Shown: positions 47,920 through 52,990 of the stretch, piece by piece
Position numbering within the stretch: position 1 is the stretch's first letter
Layout of the letters: the number at the start of each line of letters is the position of its first letter
NCBI RefSeq assembly: GCF_012030425.1
Contig: NZ_JAAUVN010000003.1
Location: forward strand, 124,001-188,000
Direction: 5' to 3'
From: Sphingobacterium sp. B16(2022)
GTDB lineage: Bacteria > Bacteroidota > Bacteroidia > Sphingobacteriales > Sphingobacteriaceae
DNA length: 64,000 bases
Notes under the pieces: generated by a model
The model's database searches: none
Told to the model about the DNA's origin: nothing
The model's input: only the letters and a program-made list of their open reading frames with translations
Position numbers and translations under genes: made by a program

Positions 47920-47948
47920 AGCACTCGTATTAAGCGGGTGCTTTTTTA
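47920..47948 (+). terminator. Terminator of panCD
   Basis: AGCACTCG (47920-47927) pairs with CGGGTGCT (47935-47942), one pair being G-U, and six T residues follow directly. Confidence 0.85.
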
Positions 47949-47956
47949 TTACCTAC

Positions 47957-48316
47957 ATGTCAAAGAATATATATATCAGAAAGATCTTAGCATCAATGCA
48001 ATTGACATTGATCAGCTTGATCATTATTTCTGGTGTTATTTTCATGCACAAAGAAGTAAAATCAAACGGAGAGATTGTCATGCACAATCACCCCTACGAT
48101 TTTACAAACGATCAGCCCAGACCGCAAGAATCCGACGATCAAATTGATTTCCTCAATGTCGTCTACAATCAGAACTTTGTTCAAAGTGAATTTATCGTTT
48201 TTGAACAACCCATTCGAACTGTCGTTCATATCTACAGTTATCAAGTCTACACACCGGTTGTCACCAATCGTGTCGTCGATCACGCTTTCTCAAGGGGTCC
48301 TCCAGATTTTGCTTAA
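47957..48316 (+). CDS. Small membrane-anchored protein with HNHP and C-terminal RGPP
   Basis: The 119-residue protein has one hydrophobic segment at about 14-30 (MQLTLISLIIISGVIFM), then a periplasmic part with GEIVMHNHPYDF at residues 38-49 and a C-terminus SRGPPDFA. I recall similar small proteins with a (H/N)HPY motif and a terminal RGPP or RAPP beside TonB-dependent receptors in other Bacteroidota, but cannot name the family. The histidines could bind a metal. It is the first gene of a set with the receptor at 48553 and the thioredoxin-like gene at 50900, although a GC-rich structured spacer of 236 bases intervenes. Confidence 0.75.
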   Translation: MSKNIYIRKILASMQLTLISLIIISGVIFMHKEVKSNGEIVMHNHPYDFTNDQPRPQESDDQIDFLNVVYNQNFVQSEFIVFEQPIRTVVHIYSYQVYTPVVTNRVVDHAFSRGPPDFA

Positions 48317-48359
48317 AATAAAATTAGTTATTGCATTCATCCTTATTATCAAGACGAAT

Positions 48360-48399
48360 GCTATTCGCCGTGCGATAGCACGACGCATTGCGTCGTGCT
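48360..48399 (+). repeat. GC-rich element with overlapping alternative hairpins
   Basis: Two hairpins share their middle arm. The first pairs GCTATTCGC (48360-48368) with GCGATAGC (48372-48379, one bulged T). The second pairs AGCACGACGCA (48377-48387) perfectly with TGCGTCGTGCT (48389-48399). Only one can form fully. It lies 44 bases after the small protein gene and 154 before the receptor start. It could be a terminator, a leader switch or a REP-type repeat; no poly-T follows. Confidence 0.55.
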
Positions 48400-48552
48400 G
48401 TAATTTATTAATTATTTTAAGTAAATAATGTAACCATAGTGGACATAGCTGGTATGAAAATATACATGGAGCAGGCATTCGCATTGCTTCGTACCGATAT
48501 TTCACACCTCCCATGATAGGTTCATTACTATTAAAAGGACAAATACACTCCA

Positions 48553-50880
48553 ATGAGAAATATCAACCTATTGATCATCATCATGATGATCAGTATGCAT
48601 ACATATGCACAACATACATTAAAAGGTAAAATCAGTAACAATGACGGTAAAGGTATAGTTGGAGCAACTATCAACATCGAAAATGGTCTTCACTCGACCG
48701 TTTCTGATACCGCAGGCTATTTTGAATTTCAAAAACTAACTAAACAAAAACAAAATATACAGATAACCGCTGTTGGCTATCAAACCATCAAACAGCTGAT
48801 ATTGCTAACAGATTCCACCGTACACTTTAAATTAAATACAGACAACCTGCATTTGAATGAAGTCGTTGTAAGCGCAACCCGATATGGTGTCAGTAAAAAG
48901 GAAGCACCAGTTATTGTGCAGGTATTAGGCCCTAAACTTTTTCAGGCTACACAATCTGTAGCTATGTCCGAAACACTAAACTATCAACCAGGAGTTAGGG
49001 TAGAGAACAACTGTCAAAACTGCGGTTTTTCACAAGTCCGTCTAAACGGATTAGAAGGCGCCTATTCACAGATCTTGATCAACAGCAGATCCGTATTCAG
49101 CGCATTAAACAGTGTATATGGTTTAGACCAACTTCCAACCAGTATGATCGACCGCATCGAAGTCGTTCGAAGTGGTGGTTCTGCCCTATTTGGAGCAAAT
49201 GCAATTGCCGGTACCATTAATATCATTACTAAAGATCCTGTCGAAAATGATTGGCAGATTAAATCTACCAACTCATTAATCGGCGGTAGCAGTTGGGATA
49301 ATACGGTAGACTTCAACACCTCCTACGTAGATGAAGACCTTACAACAGGAGTTACCTTTTATGGTATGCACCGGAATCGTCAACCATTTGATAAAAATAA
49401 GGACGGATTTTCGGAGATAACAGAACTTAACAATACCACATTCGGAACAAAAGCATTTTTCAAACCTTCCGATGTCAATAAAATAACAGTAGATTTCAGT
49501 ACCATACAGGAATTTAGAAGAGGAGGAGACCAATTTAACAAATCACCCCATTTTACAGCCATCACAGAACAACTGGAAACCAATTCACTGATTGGTGGTA
49601 TCACTTACGATCATTATTTAGCTGACTATAAACAAAAAATCTCCGTGTATGCTTCCGGCCAAAAAACAAAACGTAAAAGTTTTTACGGGGGACTGGGCGA
49701 AGCGCCCACTGCAACAGATAGTTTAAGAGCCGCAAATTCTTATGGAGACACAGATGATTTGTCTTTTGTTACAGGAACACAATACACAAACAATTTTGAG
49801 GATGATGTCTTTACCGGCGGTATTGAGTTCAACTACAACAAAACAAATGATCAGATTCCCGGATATCAACGTATCATCGATCAAAAAACAAAAGGAATAG
49901 GAACTTATGCCCAATACGAATGGAAGCCAATATCCTCTTTCAAAGCATTAATAGGAATGCGATACGACTACATCTTCGTCGATGGAAATTATCAGCTCCA
50001 ACAAGTGGAACGCAGCAGTCAGAAGAATTTTGGATCTTGGAATCCGCGATTAACCATCTTGTACGATATCAATAGTAATATTCAATTTCGTGGCGGGTAT
50101 GCTCGCGGGTTCCGTGCCCCACAAGCCTTCAATGAAGATATGCATGTGACCTCAATCGGAGGAAAACAGGTTTTTGTATTAATTGGAGAAGACCTAAAAA
50201 CAGAATATTCAAATGCTTATACCGGATCGTTCAATTTCAGCAGAAATTTTGGTAATACGCAAACAAGTCTTTTAGTGGAGGGCTTCTATACACAGTTGAA
50301 TAATCCATTTACGACAGTCTTGAAATCAGAATCCAATGACATTATGATTGAAGAAATGCGAAACGGTACAGATGCCTATGTATACGGAACAAACCTAGAA
50401 CTTAATGTAGCCCCTTCAAGTATATTTAGTCTACAAGCTGGTGGTACGATACAACGCTCGCGATACCAATCGGCACAACTGATAGCTGAAGCTAAAACAG
50501 GTCAAGAAGCCATTTTGTCCCAAGATTTCTTACGTACGCCAAATGTCTATGGGTACTTAAATGCCAATTGGAAAGCAACTAAGAAATTCGCAGTTGACCT
50601 AACAGGAGTTTACACCGGAAAAATGAAGATCTCGCATATACAAGAAGAAATCATGAGCCTCAAAAATACGAGGGATTTTATGGAGCTGAATGCACGGTTA
50701 GGATATACTTTTGCTGTTCACAAAGATTTTAACCTTGAATTATTTGCAGGTGTACAAAATATGTTCAACGCATTCCAAAAAGATTTCGATAAAGGCGCTA
50801 ATCGAGATTCAAACTACATTTACGGTCCGACAAAACCACGTACAATAACCTTTGGAGTAAAAATTGGCCATTTTCACTAA
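48553..50880 (+). CDS. TonB-dependent receptor with CxxC in the plug
   Basis: The 775-residue outer-membrane receptor has a signal peptide (cut after TYAQ), a carboxypeptidase-regulatory-like domain at about 22-95, the TonB-box region LNEVVVSATRYGVSKKEAPV, a plug and a 22-strand-type barrel ending in FGVKIGHFH. The plug has NNCQNCGFSQVRLNGLEG at residues 152-169, with Cys154 and Cys157 forming a CxxC, and SGGSALFGANAIAGTINIITK. It is the single-component (non-SusC) type used for metals, siderophores or cobalamin. The CxxC recurs in a family I recall from other Bacteroidota, but the ligand is not known to me. A thioredoxin-like gene follows by 19 bases, and no SusD is present. Confidence 0.92.
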   Translation: MRNINLLIIIMMISMHTYAQHTLKGKISNNDGKGIVGATINIENGLHSTVSDTAGYFEFQKLTKQKQNIQITAVGYQTIKQLILLTDSTVHFKLNTDNLHLNEVVVSATRYGVSKKEAPVIVQVLGPKLFQATQSVAMSETLNYQPGVRVENNCQNCGFSQVRLNGLEGAYSQILINSRSVFSALNSVYGLDQLPTSMIDRIEVVRSGGSALFGANAIAGTINIITKDPVENDWQIKSTNSLIGGSSWDNTVDFNTSYVDEDLTTGVTFYGMHRNRQPFDKNKDGFSEITELNNTTFGTKAFFKPSDVNKITVDFSTIQEFRRGGDQFNKSPHFTAITEQLETNSLIGGITYDHYLADYKQKISVYASGQKTKRKSFYGGLGEAPTATDSLRAANSYGDTDDLSFVTGTQYTNNFEDDVFTGGIEFNYNKTNDQIPGYQRIIDQKTKGIGTYAQYEWKPISSFKALIGMRYDYIFVDGNYQLQQVERSSQKNFGSWNPRLTILYDINSNIQFRGGYARGFRAPQAFNEDMHVTSIGGKQVFVLIGEDLKTEYSNAYTGSFNFSRNFGNTQTSLLVEGFYTQLNNPFTTVLKSESNDIMIEEMRNGTDAYVYGTNLELNVAPSSIFSLQAGGTIQRSRYQSAQLIAEAKTGQEAILSQDFLRTPNVYGYLNANWKATKKFAVDLTGVYTGKMKISHIQEEIMSLKNTRDFMELNARLGYTFAVHKDFNLELFAGVQNMFNAFQKDFDKGANRDSNYIYGPTKPRTITFGVKIGHFH

Positions 50881-50899
50881 TCCCATTTATTAAAGAAAG

Positions 50900-51367
50900 A
50901 TGAAGCATATGCACAAATTTGTTTTATTAATAACGATTATCCTTTATCCGCTCAGCCATTATGGTCAAGAGCGGATAATTTATACCTCTTTTCAACAATT
51001 AGACTCTTTATTAAGCATAGCACCAAAAGAAACAATCATCTTCATTCATACCGACTGGTGCAGCTACTGCAGAAAAATGGAAAAAGAAGTCTTTTCAAAA
51101 AAAGAAATCTATGACCGATTAAACAAAGATTATTATCTAGTTGAATTAGATGCGGAGACGGTTGAGTACATCACTTTCGATCAGCAAGTATGGAAATCAA
51201 AAACTCCCAAAAAAAATACCGGACAATATCATCCCTTAGCCTTACTCTTGTTAACCAGCCAAAAGATGGTTTTCCCGAGTCTCCTGCGTTATGATCAAAC
51301 ATTTAAATTAAAAAGTATTAAGCAAAAATATCTAAGCCCAAAAGAGTTAGCGAATTTTTTAAGATAA
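50900..51367 (+). CDS. Periplasmic thioredoxin-like protein (CSYC)
   Basis: The 155-residue protein has a signal peptide (LYPLSHYG) and a thioredoxin fold start with IIFIHTDWCSYCRKMEKEVFS; the active site is Cys54-Ser-Tyr-Cys57. The surrounding pattern (DWCxxCxxME, VEYITFDQQVW, YHPLALLLL) resembles the thioredoxin_7/DUF255-type secreted proteins. It probably acts on disulfides in the periplasm. It starts 19 bases after the CxxC receptor and is likely co-transcribed, so it could keep the receptor's cysteines in a defined redox state or handle the imported ligand. The partner reductase is not visible in the window. Confidence 0.85.
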   Translation: MKHMHKFVLLITIILYPLSHYGQERIIYTSFQQLDSLLSIAPKETIIFIHTDWCSYCRKMEKEVFSKKEIYDRLNKDYYLVELDAETVEYITFDQQVWKSKTPKKNTGQYHPLALLLLTSQKMVFPSLLRYDQTFKLKSIKQKYLSPKELANFLR

Positions 51368-51440: not shown

Positions 51441-52121
51441 ATGAAAAAATTTACGAAATTTTTAATGGCATTTTTATGCATGGGGATAGTTTTTGCTTCC
51501 TGTAACAAAAATGATTTTGATTATGAGAAAGCTGAAAGAGAGCAAATTGAAAAAGCAAGATTAGAAAAAGTACGCAGAGATTCATTAAAAAGAATACAAG
51601 CTCCTTTATTAGAGCAATATGCAAAAACCAAATGGGGAGATAATGCTAAATACTCTGATTCAACTGGAATCTGGTATAAAGTAGATTTAGCGGCTGGAAA
51701 TGAAACTCCTTACGTATATAAAGGAACTGTTAATGGTATTGGACAAGCAGGGTTAAATGTTTGGGCAGCAACTGTAAATTTTAAGGGTGAACTGATGAAT
51801 GGAACTGTATTTGATAAAAATACAGATGGAGTTCCTAAAAATTACACAGATATTCGTCAAGCAACTACAGTATACGGAGCTGCTTGGGTTCAAGCATTTG
51901 TACCAACAATCATTAATATCCAAGGTAAAGATGTAAGATTCGAGGGATTACTACCAAAAGGTCTCCAAAAAAATGATAAAATTAGTTTTATTTCACCATC
52001 TTATTATACTTTTGACCAAGTAGAATATACAAAAGGTAGCGAAAAAGTAACTGTTCCTAAAAATACTCCAGTTGTTTACACAATCGAAGTGAAAACTGTT
52101 GGAGATGTTACTGGTTCGTAA
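51441..52121 (+). CDS. FKBP-like lipoprotein, paralogue 1
   Basis: The 226-residue protein has a signal peptide and lipobox (IVFASC, then NKND), a charged helical stretch (EKAEREQIEKARLEKVRRDSLKR, about 30-52) and an FKBP-type fold with TGIWYKV, VNFKGELMNGTVFDKN, and at the end SPSYYTFDQV...VPKNTPVVYTIEVKTV, the usual FKBP end pattern. Compared with standard FKBPs, the tyrosine/phenylalanine-rich pocket residues are changed and there is an insertion before the final strands, so isomerase activity is uncertain. It forms a tandem pair with the gene at 52358 and both may fold outer-membrane or secreted proteins. It ends at a strong terminator, so the two are separate transcripts. Confidence 0.8.
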   Translation: MKKFTKFLMAFLCMGIVFASCNKNDFDYEKAEREQIEKARLEKVRRDSLKRIQAPLLEQYAKTKWGDNAKYSDSTGIWYKVDLAAGNETPYVYKGTVNGIGQAGLNVWAATVNFKGELMNGTVFDKNTDGVPKNYTDIRQATTVYGAAWVQAFVPTIINIQGKDVRFEGLLPKGLQKNDKISFISPSYYTFDQVEYTKGSEKVTVPKNTPVVYTIEVKTVGDVTGS

Positions 52122-52357: not shown

Positions 52358-52990
52358 ATGAAAAATTTTACAAAAATCTTTTTTGGAATGTTGGCAATGA
52401 TTATTGCTTTGGCATCTTGTAGTAAATCAGACGACTTTTCAAAATTAGCTGAAGAACAAAGAATTAAAGATTCTATCGAAAATGCGAGAATCCAAAATTT
52501 ACTAAAAGAACAGGCTCCTCAGTTGAAATCATTTGCCATCAAAAATTTCACGAATCCTAAATTAGATACAGCAACTGGTATTTGGTATGATCTGATAGCT
52601 GAAGGTGACGATGCTTCATACGCTTATCAAATCAGCTCCGGTGGTTACCTGATGTATCCTACCGCTGTAGTAAATTATAAAGTTAATTTACTGAACGGCG
52701 CAGATAAAGGAACTCTTGTTGATGAATCTAAAGAGGGTAGCCCAGCAACATTTACGATAAATAGAGACCGTATTATCTTATTCTGGCAGTTCGCTTTTTT
52801 TCCAAAAAAATTATCTTTTCAAGGTAAGGAAGTAAATATCGGTGGATTAACTGTAAAAGGACTTAAAAAAGGAAGTAAAATAAAAGCTGTAGCACCATCT
52901 CCATTCGGTTATGATCAAGTTGCAAAAGATAAAGTTCCAGCAAACTCTCCACTATATTCTGAAATTGAAGTTGTTTCAATTAGCAATTAA
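52358..52990 (+). CDS. FKBP-like lipoprotein, paralogue 2
   Basis: The 210-residue lipoprotein (lipobox LALASC, then SKSDD) is clearly related to the preceding gene. Shared features are the N-terminus (MK(K/N)FTK), the charged helix (EEQRIKDSIENARIQNLLKEQAP), TGIWYD, VVNYKVNLLNG, the SFQGKEVNIGGLTVKGLKKGSKIKA stretch, and an FKBP-like end (APSPFGYDQV, PANSPLYSEIEVVSI). The usual Asp of the FKBP GxxFD motif appears as GTLVDES, so the active site may be altered. The pair arose by duplication and has diverged considerably. It has its own upstream element and terminator. Confidence 0.8.
   Translation: MKNFTKIFFGMLAMIIALASCSKSDDFSKLAEEQRIKDSIENARIQNLLKEQAPQLKSFAIKNFTNPKLDTATGIWYDLIAEGDDASYAYQISSGGYLMYPTAVVNYKVNLLNGADKGTLVDESKEGSPATFTINRDRIILFWQFAFFPKKLSFQGKEVNIGGLTVKGLKKGSKIKAVAPSPFGYDQVAKDKVPANSPLYSEIEVVSISN

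Follow-up and report, generated by a model that had tools for sequence, protein, structure and literature searches.

A Bacteroidota variant of the receptor–thioredoxin module: a CxxC-plug TonB receptor, a thioredoxin-fold protein, and a small His-cluster protein in a probable metal-uptake cassette of Sphingobacterium

The window—the whole stretch of 64,000 nucleotides of Sphingobacterium sp. B16(2022) DNA that was analyzed—contains a three-gene cassette that is a Bacteroidota variant of a receptor–thioredoxin module first described in May 2026. The cassette is probably a TonB-driven outer-membrane importer of a divalent transition metal, with Cys154 and Cys157 of the receptor as ligands, a small membrane protein as an accessory, and a thioredoxin-fold protein as the reductase. 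The three open reading frames lie on the plus strand in the order small protein, TonB-dependent receptor, and thioredoxin-fold protein. They are separated by 236 bases between small protein and receptor and by 19 bases between receptor and thioredoxin. The features on which the original prediction was built—HNHPY, RGPP, Cys154-x-x-Cys157, Cys54-x-x-Cys57, and the 19-base gap—are all present in the sequence. The cassette and its upstream element comprise the following features:

47920..47949, plus strand: hairpin with a T run immediately 5' of the small-protein start; 9-pair stem, -13.1 kcal/mol
47957..48316, plus strand: small membrane protein of 119 aa; single N-terminal hydrophobic segment, His cluster, and C-terminal RGPP
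48553..50880, plus strand: TonB-dependent receptor of 775 aa; leader, carboxypeptidase-like N-terminal domain, plug, and barrel
49012..49023, plus strand: CQNC (Cys154-Gln-Asn-Cys157), candidate metal ligands, inside the PF07715 plug
50900..51367, plus strand: secreted thioredoxin-fold protein of 155 aa; hydrophobic N-terminal leader and WC54SYC57 (codons 51059-51070)

The cassette sits after panC–panD, and the same order is found in other Sphingobacterium loci. Proximity of panD to the small-protein/receptor pair is also seen at two unrelated loci (L155 and L223) and is possibly a coincidence. The hairpin at 47920..47949 is probably the panD terminator. Other Sphingobacterium loci, L087 among them, have a comparable hairpin with a T run 5' of the small protein, and a 25-pair perfect hairpin precedes a second small-protein copy (L217); these hairpins are either terminators of the upstream gene or leader elements. 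The gap between small protein and receptor holds, at about 48343-48405, a palindromic repeat-like stretch, CACGACGCATTGCGTCGTG, which resembles REP-type dispersed elements, and no Rfam element was found near the cassette. Downstream follows a pair of similar lipoproteins (51441-52121 and 52358-52990); the first matches both FKBP_C and the BamJ model weakly, the latter at 32 bits against a cut-off of 100.

The receptor features the Pfam domains PF13715, PF07715, and PF00593, each above its cut-off, and the PF07715 plug spans residues 115–221. Cys154 and Cys157 are invariant in both receptor alignments; among 44 aligned receptors, the invariant residues are E151, C154, Q155, and C157, together with D529 and H531 of the barrel. 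The plug CxxC is kept in all 130 homologous receptors: in 129 as judged by motif, and in L143, a MAG locus, where CQNC persists 5' of an in-frame stop. The prevailing variant is CQNC (111 receptors), followed by CQTC (15) and by CSNC, CANC, and CQSC (one each). Of the 30 further TonB-receptor plugs in the genome of the window, by contrast, none has CxxC and only two have any Cys. CxxC is thus a hallmark of this receptor family; it is not a product of chance and marks the family regardless of the thioredoxin. A BLAST-based, motif-independent sample of 395 genomes of the host's class yielded a close receptor relative, at E below 1e-60, in 52 of them. A scan of named genomes added 80 further loci, but one of its two search patterns includes CxxC, so the BLAST sample alone is free of motif bias. 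Relatives retrieved in a search of plasmid records were all Bacteroidota.

In the AlphaFold2 model of the receptor (mean pLDDT 86.7), CQNC is placed in a plug loop between the strands 148–152 and 160–164. The closest solved folds are PirA, Cir, PqqU, and BtuB, none of them a discriminating match, and CQNC aligns with the GDNR segment of Cir, which has no Cys there. In the search with NCBIfam-type family models, the receptor reached no family cut-off. Separately, residues 280–288 (49390-49416) form a conserved DxNxDGFSE segment in the barrel that is similar to an EF-hand-type calcium loop; D280, D284, and E288 are invariant in alignment A2.

The thioredoxin-fold protein scores above the Pfam cut-off of 27 with both PF13899 (33.6 bits) and PF13098 (32.6 bits), and its family has W53, C54, C57, H111, and P126 as invariant residues. 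Its nearest solved relatives are the C-terminal thioredoxin domains of DsbD, a likeness that points to a reducing role. Unlike DsbD, however, it is stand-alone, secreted, and linked to a receptor, and it stays under the cut-offs of both the DsbH and DsbD families. The predicted pairing with the receptor is recurrent: the thioredoxin follows immediately 3' in 53 of the 130 loci (50 by HMM, and L088, L090, and L093 by reading frame), mostly with a gap of -4 to 30 bases. On the receptor tree, its presence changes five times. The thioredoxin-linked receptors make up one large clade (Sphingobacterium, Flavobacteriia, and Cytophagia) and a separate pair, L042 and L085, in the CQTC branch. In six Bacteroidales-like genomes that carry the small protein and a CxxC receptor, no member of the thioredoxin family was found; the best profile matches there, at 35–50 bits, lie within DsbD-sized proteins of 670–710 aa.

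The alignment of plugs, which had been put forward as a check, shows CxxC to be invariant where the thioredoxin adjoins and equally so where it is absent; the thioredoxin is therefore a frequent but dispensable partner. The idea that it controls the plug is only partly supported: the pair recurs, but CxxC is universal whereas just 53 of 130 loci have the thioredoxin next to the receptor, and the six genomes lack that thioredoxin family. Homologous receptors thus do not lack CxxC, but most of them are not linked to the thioredoxin. We propose the thioredoxin as the reductase of the plug cysteines; the better reading of these is as metal ligands, which it may keep reduced in some lineages. As exposed thiols would call for a reductase under air, the thioredoxin was expected to track aerobic life as marked by COX1 (PF00115). 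Among the 52 receptor-bearing genomes, a thioredoxin-profile match is found in 36 of 42 with COX1 and in two of 10 without. This candidate was dropped, since such matches occur in 281 of 390 class genomes, mostly free of the receptor, and hence represent general thioredoxins.

The small protein has HNHPY at residues 43–47 (codons 48083-48097) and RGPP at residues 113–116, and a 20-row alignment yields H31, H43, H45, P46, R113, P115, and P116 as invariant. The family pattern is HxHP...R(A/G)PP, and the protein has no credible match among the Pfam or NCBIfam models. A profile search of 390 genomes located the family in 16. Members of the family immediately precede 33 of the 130 receptors; these pairs occur in Sphingobacterium and Bacteroides-type genomes. 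The earlier view of the small protein as an accessory is supported in that it is a real, recurrent, and metal-linked partner. At the distant locus L221, small protein, CNVC receptor, and thioredoxin stand in a row. The family is also the first gene of Czc/Cus-family RND efflux operons (L218, L224, and L225), whose RND genes exceed the TIGR00914 cut-off, and one such operon carries a CzcA-like DFGILVDGAIVMMET segment. The genome of the window carries a second copy (L217:5839-6222), which leads a ZnuD-like receptor with the plug sequence GDEHGIEID; this receptor scores 119 bits with the ZnuD model against a cut-off of 950. Further ZnuD-like receptors are led by the small protein at L220 and L222, with DtxR-type boxes 5' of it. 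At L217, L220, L222, and L223, the TonB receptors behind the small protein are without CxxC. Since the partners of the family have metal transport in common, a periplasmic metal binder is the simplest inference for its role.

Receptors without the small protein neighbor a mostly divergent three-domain DtxR-type regulator, for which an MntR model is the best NCBIfam match, under its cut-off. Their other neighbors are a ZIP transporter, a TroA/ZnuA-type binding protein, or FeoB accompanied by its small Cys-rich protein. Between regulator and receptor, relatives carry a palindrome near TTTAGATTAATCTAAA. The DtxR/MntR-type operator TTAGN6CTAA occurs 5' of 68 of the 130 receptors as compared with one of 130 shuffled sequences. 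These neighbors and operators support the predicted link to metal uptake. The boxes divide completely: where the small protein is present, none of the 33 receptors, the window's included, has one; where it is absent, 68 of 97 do. Fisher's test gives p 5e-14 with relatedness ignored; the split follows the receptor tree, and a tree-based test had too few independent pairs to reach significance. The branch of the window is thus differently regulated, and with no DtxR-type box at its locus, the metal of the relatives is not transferable to it.

In the window, no DtxR/MntR-type box lies 5' of the small protein or the receptor, and neither mntR nor mntH stands beside the cassette. Upstream of the same two genes, no Zur-like operator was found, nor any convincing palindromic operator in Sphingobacterium or Bacteroides; apparent motifs in these upstream regions may reflect upstream coding sequence or close relatedness. 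The window's genome has three Fur-family genes and a second CxxC receptor, L038 (G000 contig C22:664914-667187), which reads DCQTCNY and is 38% identical. This paralogue adjoins the sole DtxR-type gene of the genome, on a contig other than the window's, and has a DtxR-type box. Both regulatory types, boxed and unboxed, hence coexist in one genome.

The closest described system is that of Stenotrophomonas maltophilia Sm18, in which orf2357–orf2358 encode an MntR-regulated CQNC receptor and a periplasmic thioredoxin-fold protein, pTFP (PMC13217887, 12 May 2026). The earlier statement that no such system had been described no longer holds, and the two-gene receptor–thioredoxin inference is already in print. 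The authors found their reporter off at 80 nM Mn under Fe limitation and proposed that CQNC coordinates Mn, its disulfide being possibly reduced by the partner (PMC13217887). By described features, the cassette shares with this module the plug CQNC, a CxxC thioredoxin-fold gene directly 3', and a metal-homeostasis context in relatives. It differs in that MntR gene, mntH, and MntR-type box are all missing alongside it, in its third gene for the small His protein, and in its thioredoxin active site, CSYC instead of CAPC. CQNC/pTFP synteny was reported for Lysobacterales, Sphingomonadales, and Opitutales (PMC13217887), whereas the cassette of the window belongs to Bacteroidota and widens this distribution. 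New here are the spread in Bacteroidota, the third gene, the lack of MntR control, CxxC without a thioredoxin, and the small-protein family.

Two receptors of known structure allow for comparison of the metal site. OprC binds metal between Cys143 and Met147 of the plug and His323 and Met325 of the barrel (PMC8610252). The window receptor resembles OprC/NosA in being a TonB receptor with plug cysteine chemistry and, as proposed, a metal site formed by plug and barrel. However, OprC/NosA have CxxxM plus HxM where the window receptor has CxxC, and TIGR01778 is not among its reported matches. In ZnuD, metal is held between Asp99 and His100 of the plug and Glu340 and His499 (PMC4557270). The link to ZnuD is through the second small-protein copy of the genome, whereas the ligands Asp/His/Glu/His include no CxxC and NF038289 is not among the reported matches of the window receptor.

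In the mechanism that we infer from gene content, conservation, neighborhoods, and the operators of relatives, a divalent transition metal would be imported free or weakly chelated. It would bind to Cys154 and Cys157 in the plug loop, probably together with barrel ligands, for which His531 and Asp529 are candidates; such a site would match the plug-plus-barrel layout of OprC and ZnuD. The pull of TonB on the plug would release the metal into the periplasm, where the His cluster of the small membrane protein would take it and buffer it or pass it on. The thioredoxin would keep the exposed plug thiols in the reduced, metal-binding state or return them to it. Mn2+ or Fe2+ is the foremost candidate for the metal, at evenly balanced confidence, because of the regulators of relatives and the Stenotrophomonas system. 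Mn2+ is seldom bound by thiolates, which counts against it here. Zn2+ is a plausible if less probable choice, in view of the thiolate/His chemistry and of the genes that the small protein accompanies elsewhere. Copper, which the original prediction had named, is the least supported candidate and improbable.

Zinc import may be confined to one branch of the family: the receptors led by the small protein, in Sphingobacterium and Bacteroides, would take Zn2+ under a non-DtxR regulator, and the branch with DtxR boxes would take Mn or Fe. The complete box split, the small-protein family at the head of ZnuD-like receptors and Czc/Cus-family RND operons, and ligands that suit Zn2+ all argue for this possible but rather doubtful reading. 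Yet the split tracks the tree with few independent pairs, the ZnuD-like loci L220 and L222 are led by the small protein and nevertheless DtxR-boxed upstream, no Zur-like operator was found, and the ZnuD model is absent among the reported matches of the window receptor.

Two other readings depart further from the preferred one of a metal importer with thiol ligands. The plug CxxC could be a regulatory disulfide, reduced by the thioredoxin so as to open or close the receptor, with metal binding secondary. The thioredoxin being adjacent 3' in 53 of 130 loci, across the large clade, the pair in the CQTC branch, and the distant L221, is consistent with such a gate, as is the proposed reduction of CQNC by its partner (PMC13217887); the invariance of CxxC without the thioredoxin, including the six genomes that lack its family, makes the gate unlikely. 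Still less credible is a receptor that imports an organic or siderophore-type ligand and has CxxC as a structural disulfide. Cir, PirA, PqqU, and BtuB are the nearest relatives in both fold and sequence, and that these closest solved structures carry siderophores or cobalamin counts against metal import. Against this stand the failure of the receptor to reach any family cut-off, the lack of Cys at the aligned position of Cir, and the regulator and transporter neighbors of relatives, which are metal-ion genes. A structural disulfide is, in addition, disfavored by the retention of CxxC in Bacteroides-type genomes, Bacteroides being anaerobes.

To our knowledge, little is understood of how Mn, Fe, or Zn, as free ions, cross the Gram-negative outer membrane, and we know of few established free-metal receptors: ZnuD, OprC, and MnoT. 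The invariant plug CxxC of the present family, found in 52 of 395 class genomes and in gut Bacteroides, offers a two-residue handle, C154/C157. The recurrent thioredoxin poses the question of whether an outer-membrane transporter requires a reductase of its own. The small accessory protein represents an unnamed family tied to both metal uptake and efflux. Tentatively, and with the doubt outweighing, it may be a new protein family that assists metal handling in the periplasm, in import (CxxC and ZnuD-like receptors) as well as export (Czc-type RND pumps); together with the thiol-plug receptor and a dedicated reductase it would then form a thiol-based importer of Sphingobacterium with its own regulation, whose metal would not be Mn but most likely Zn2+.
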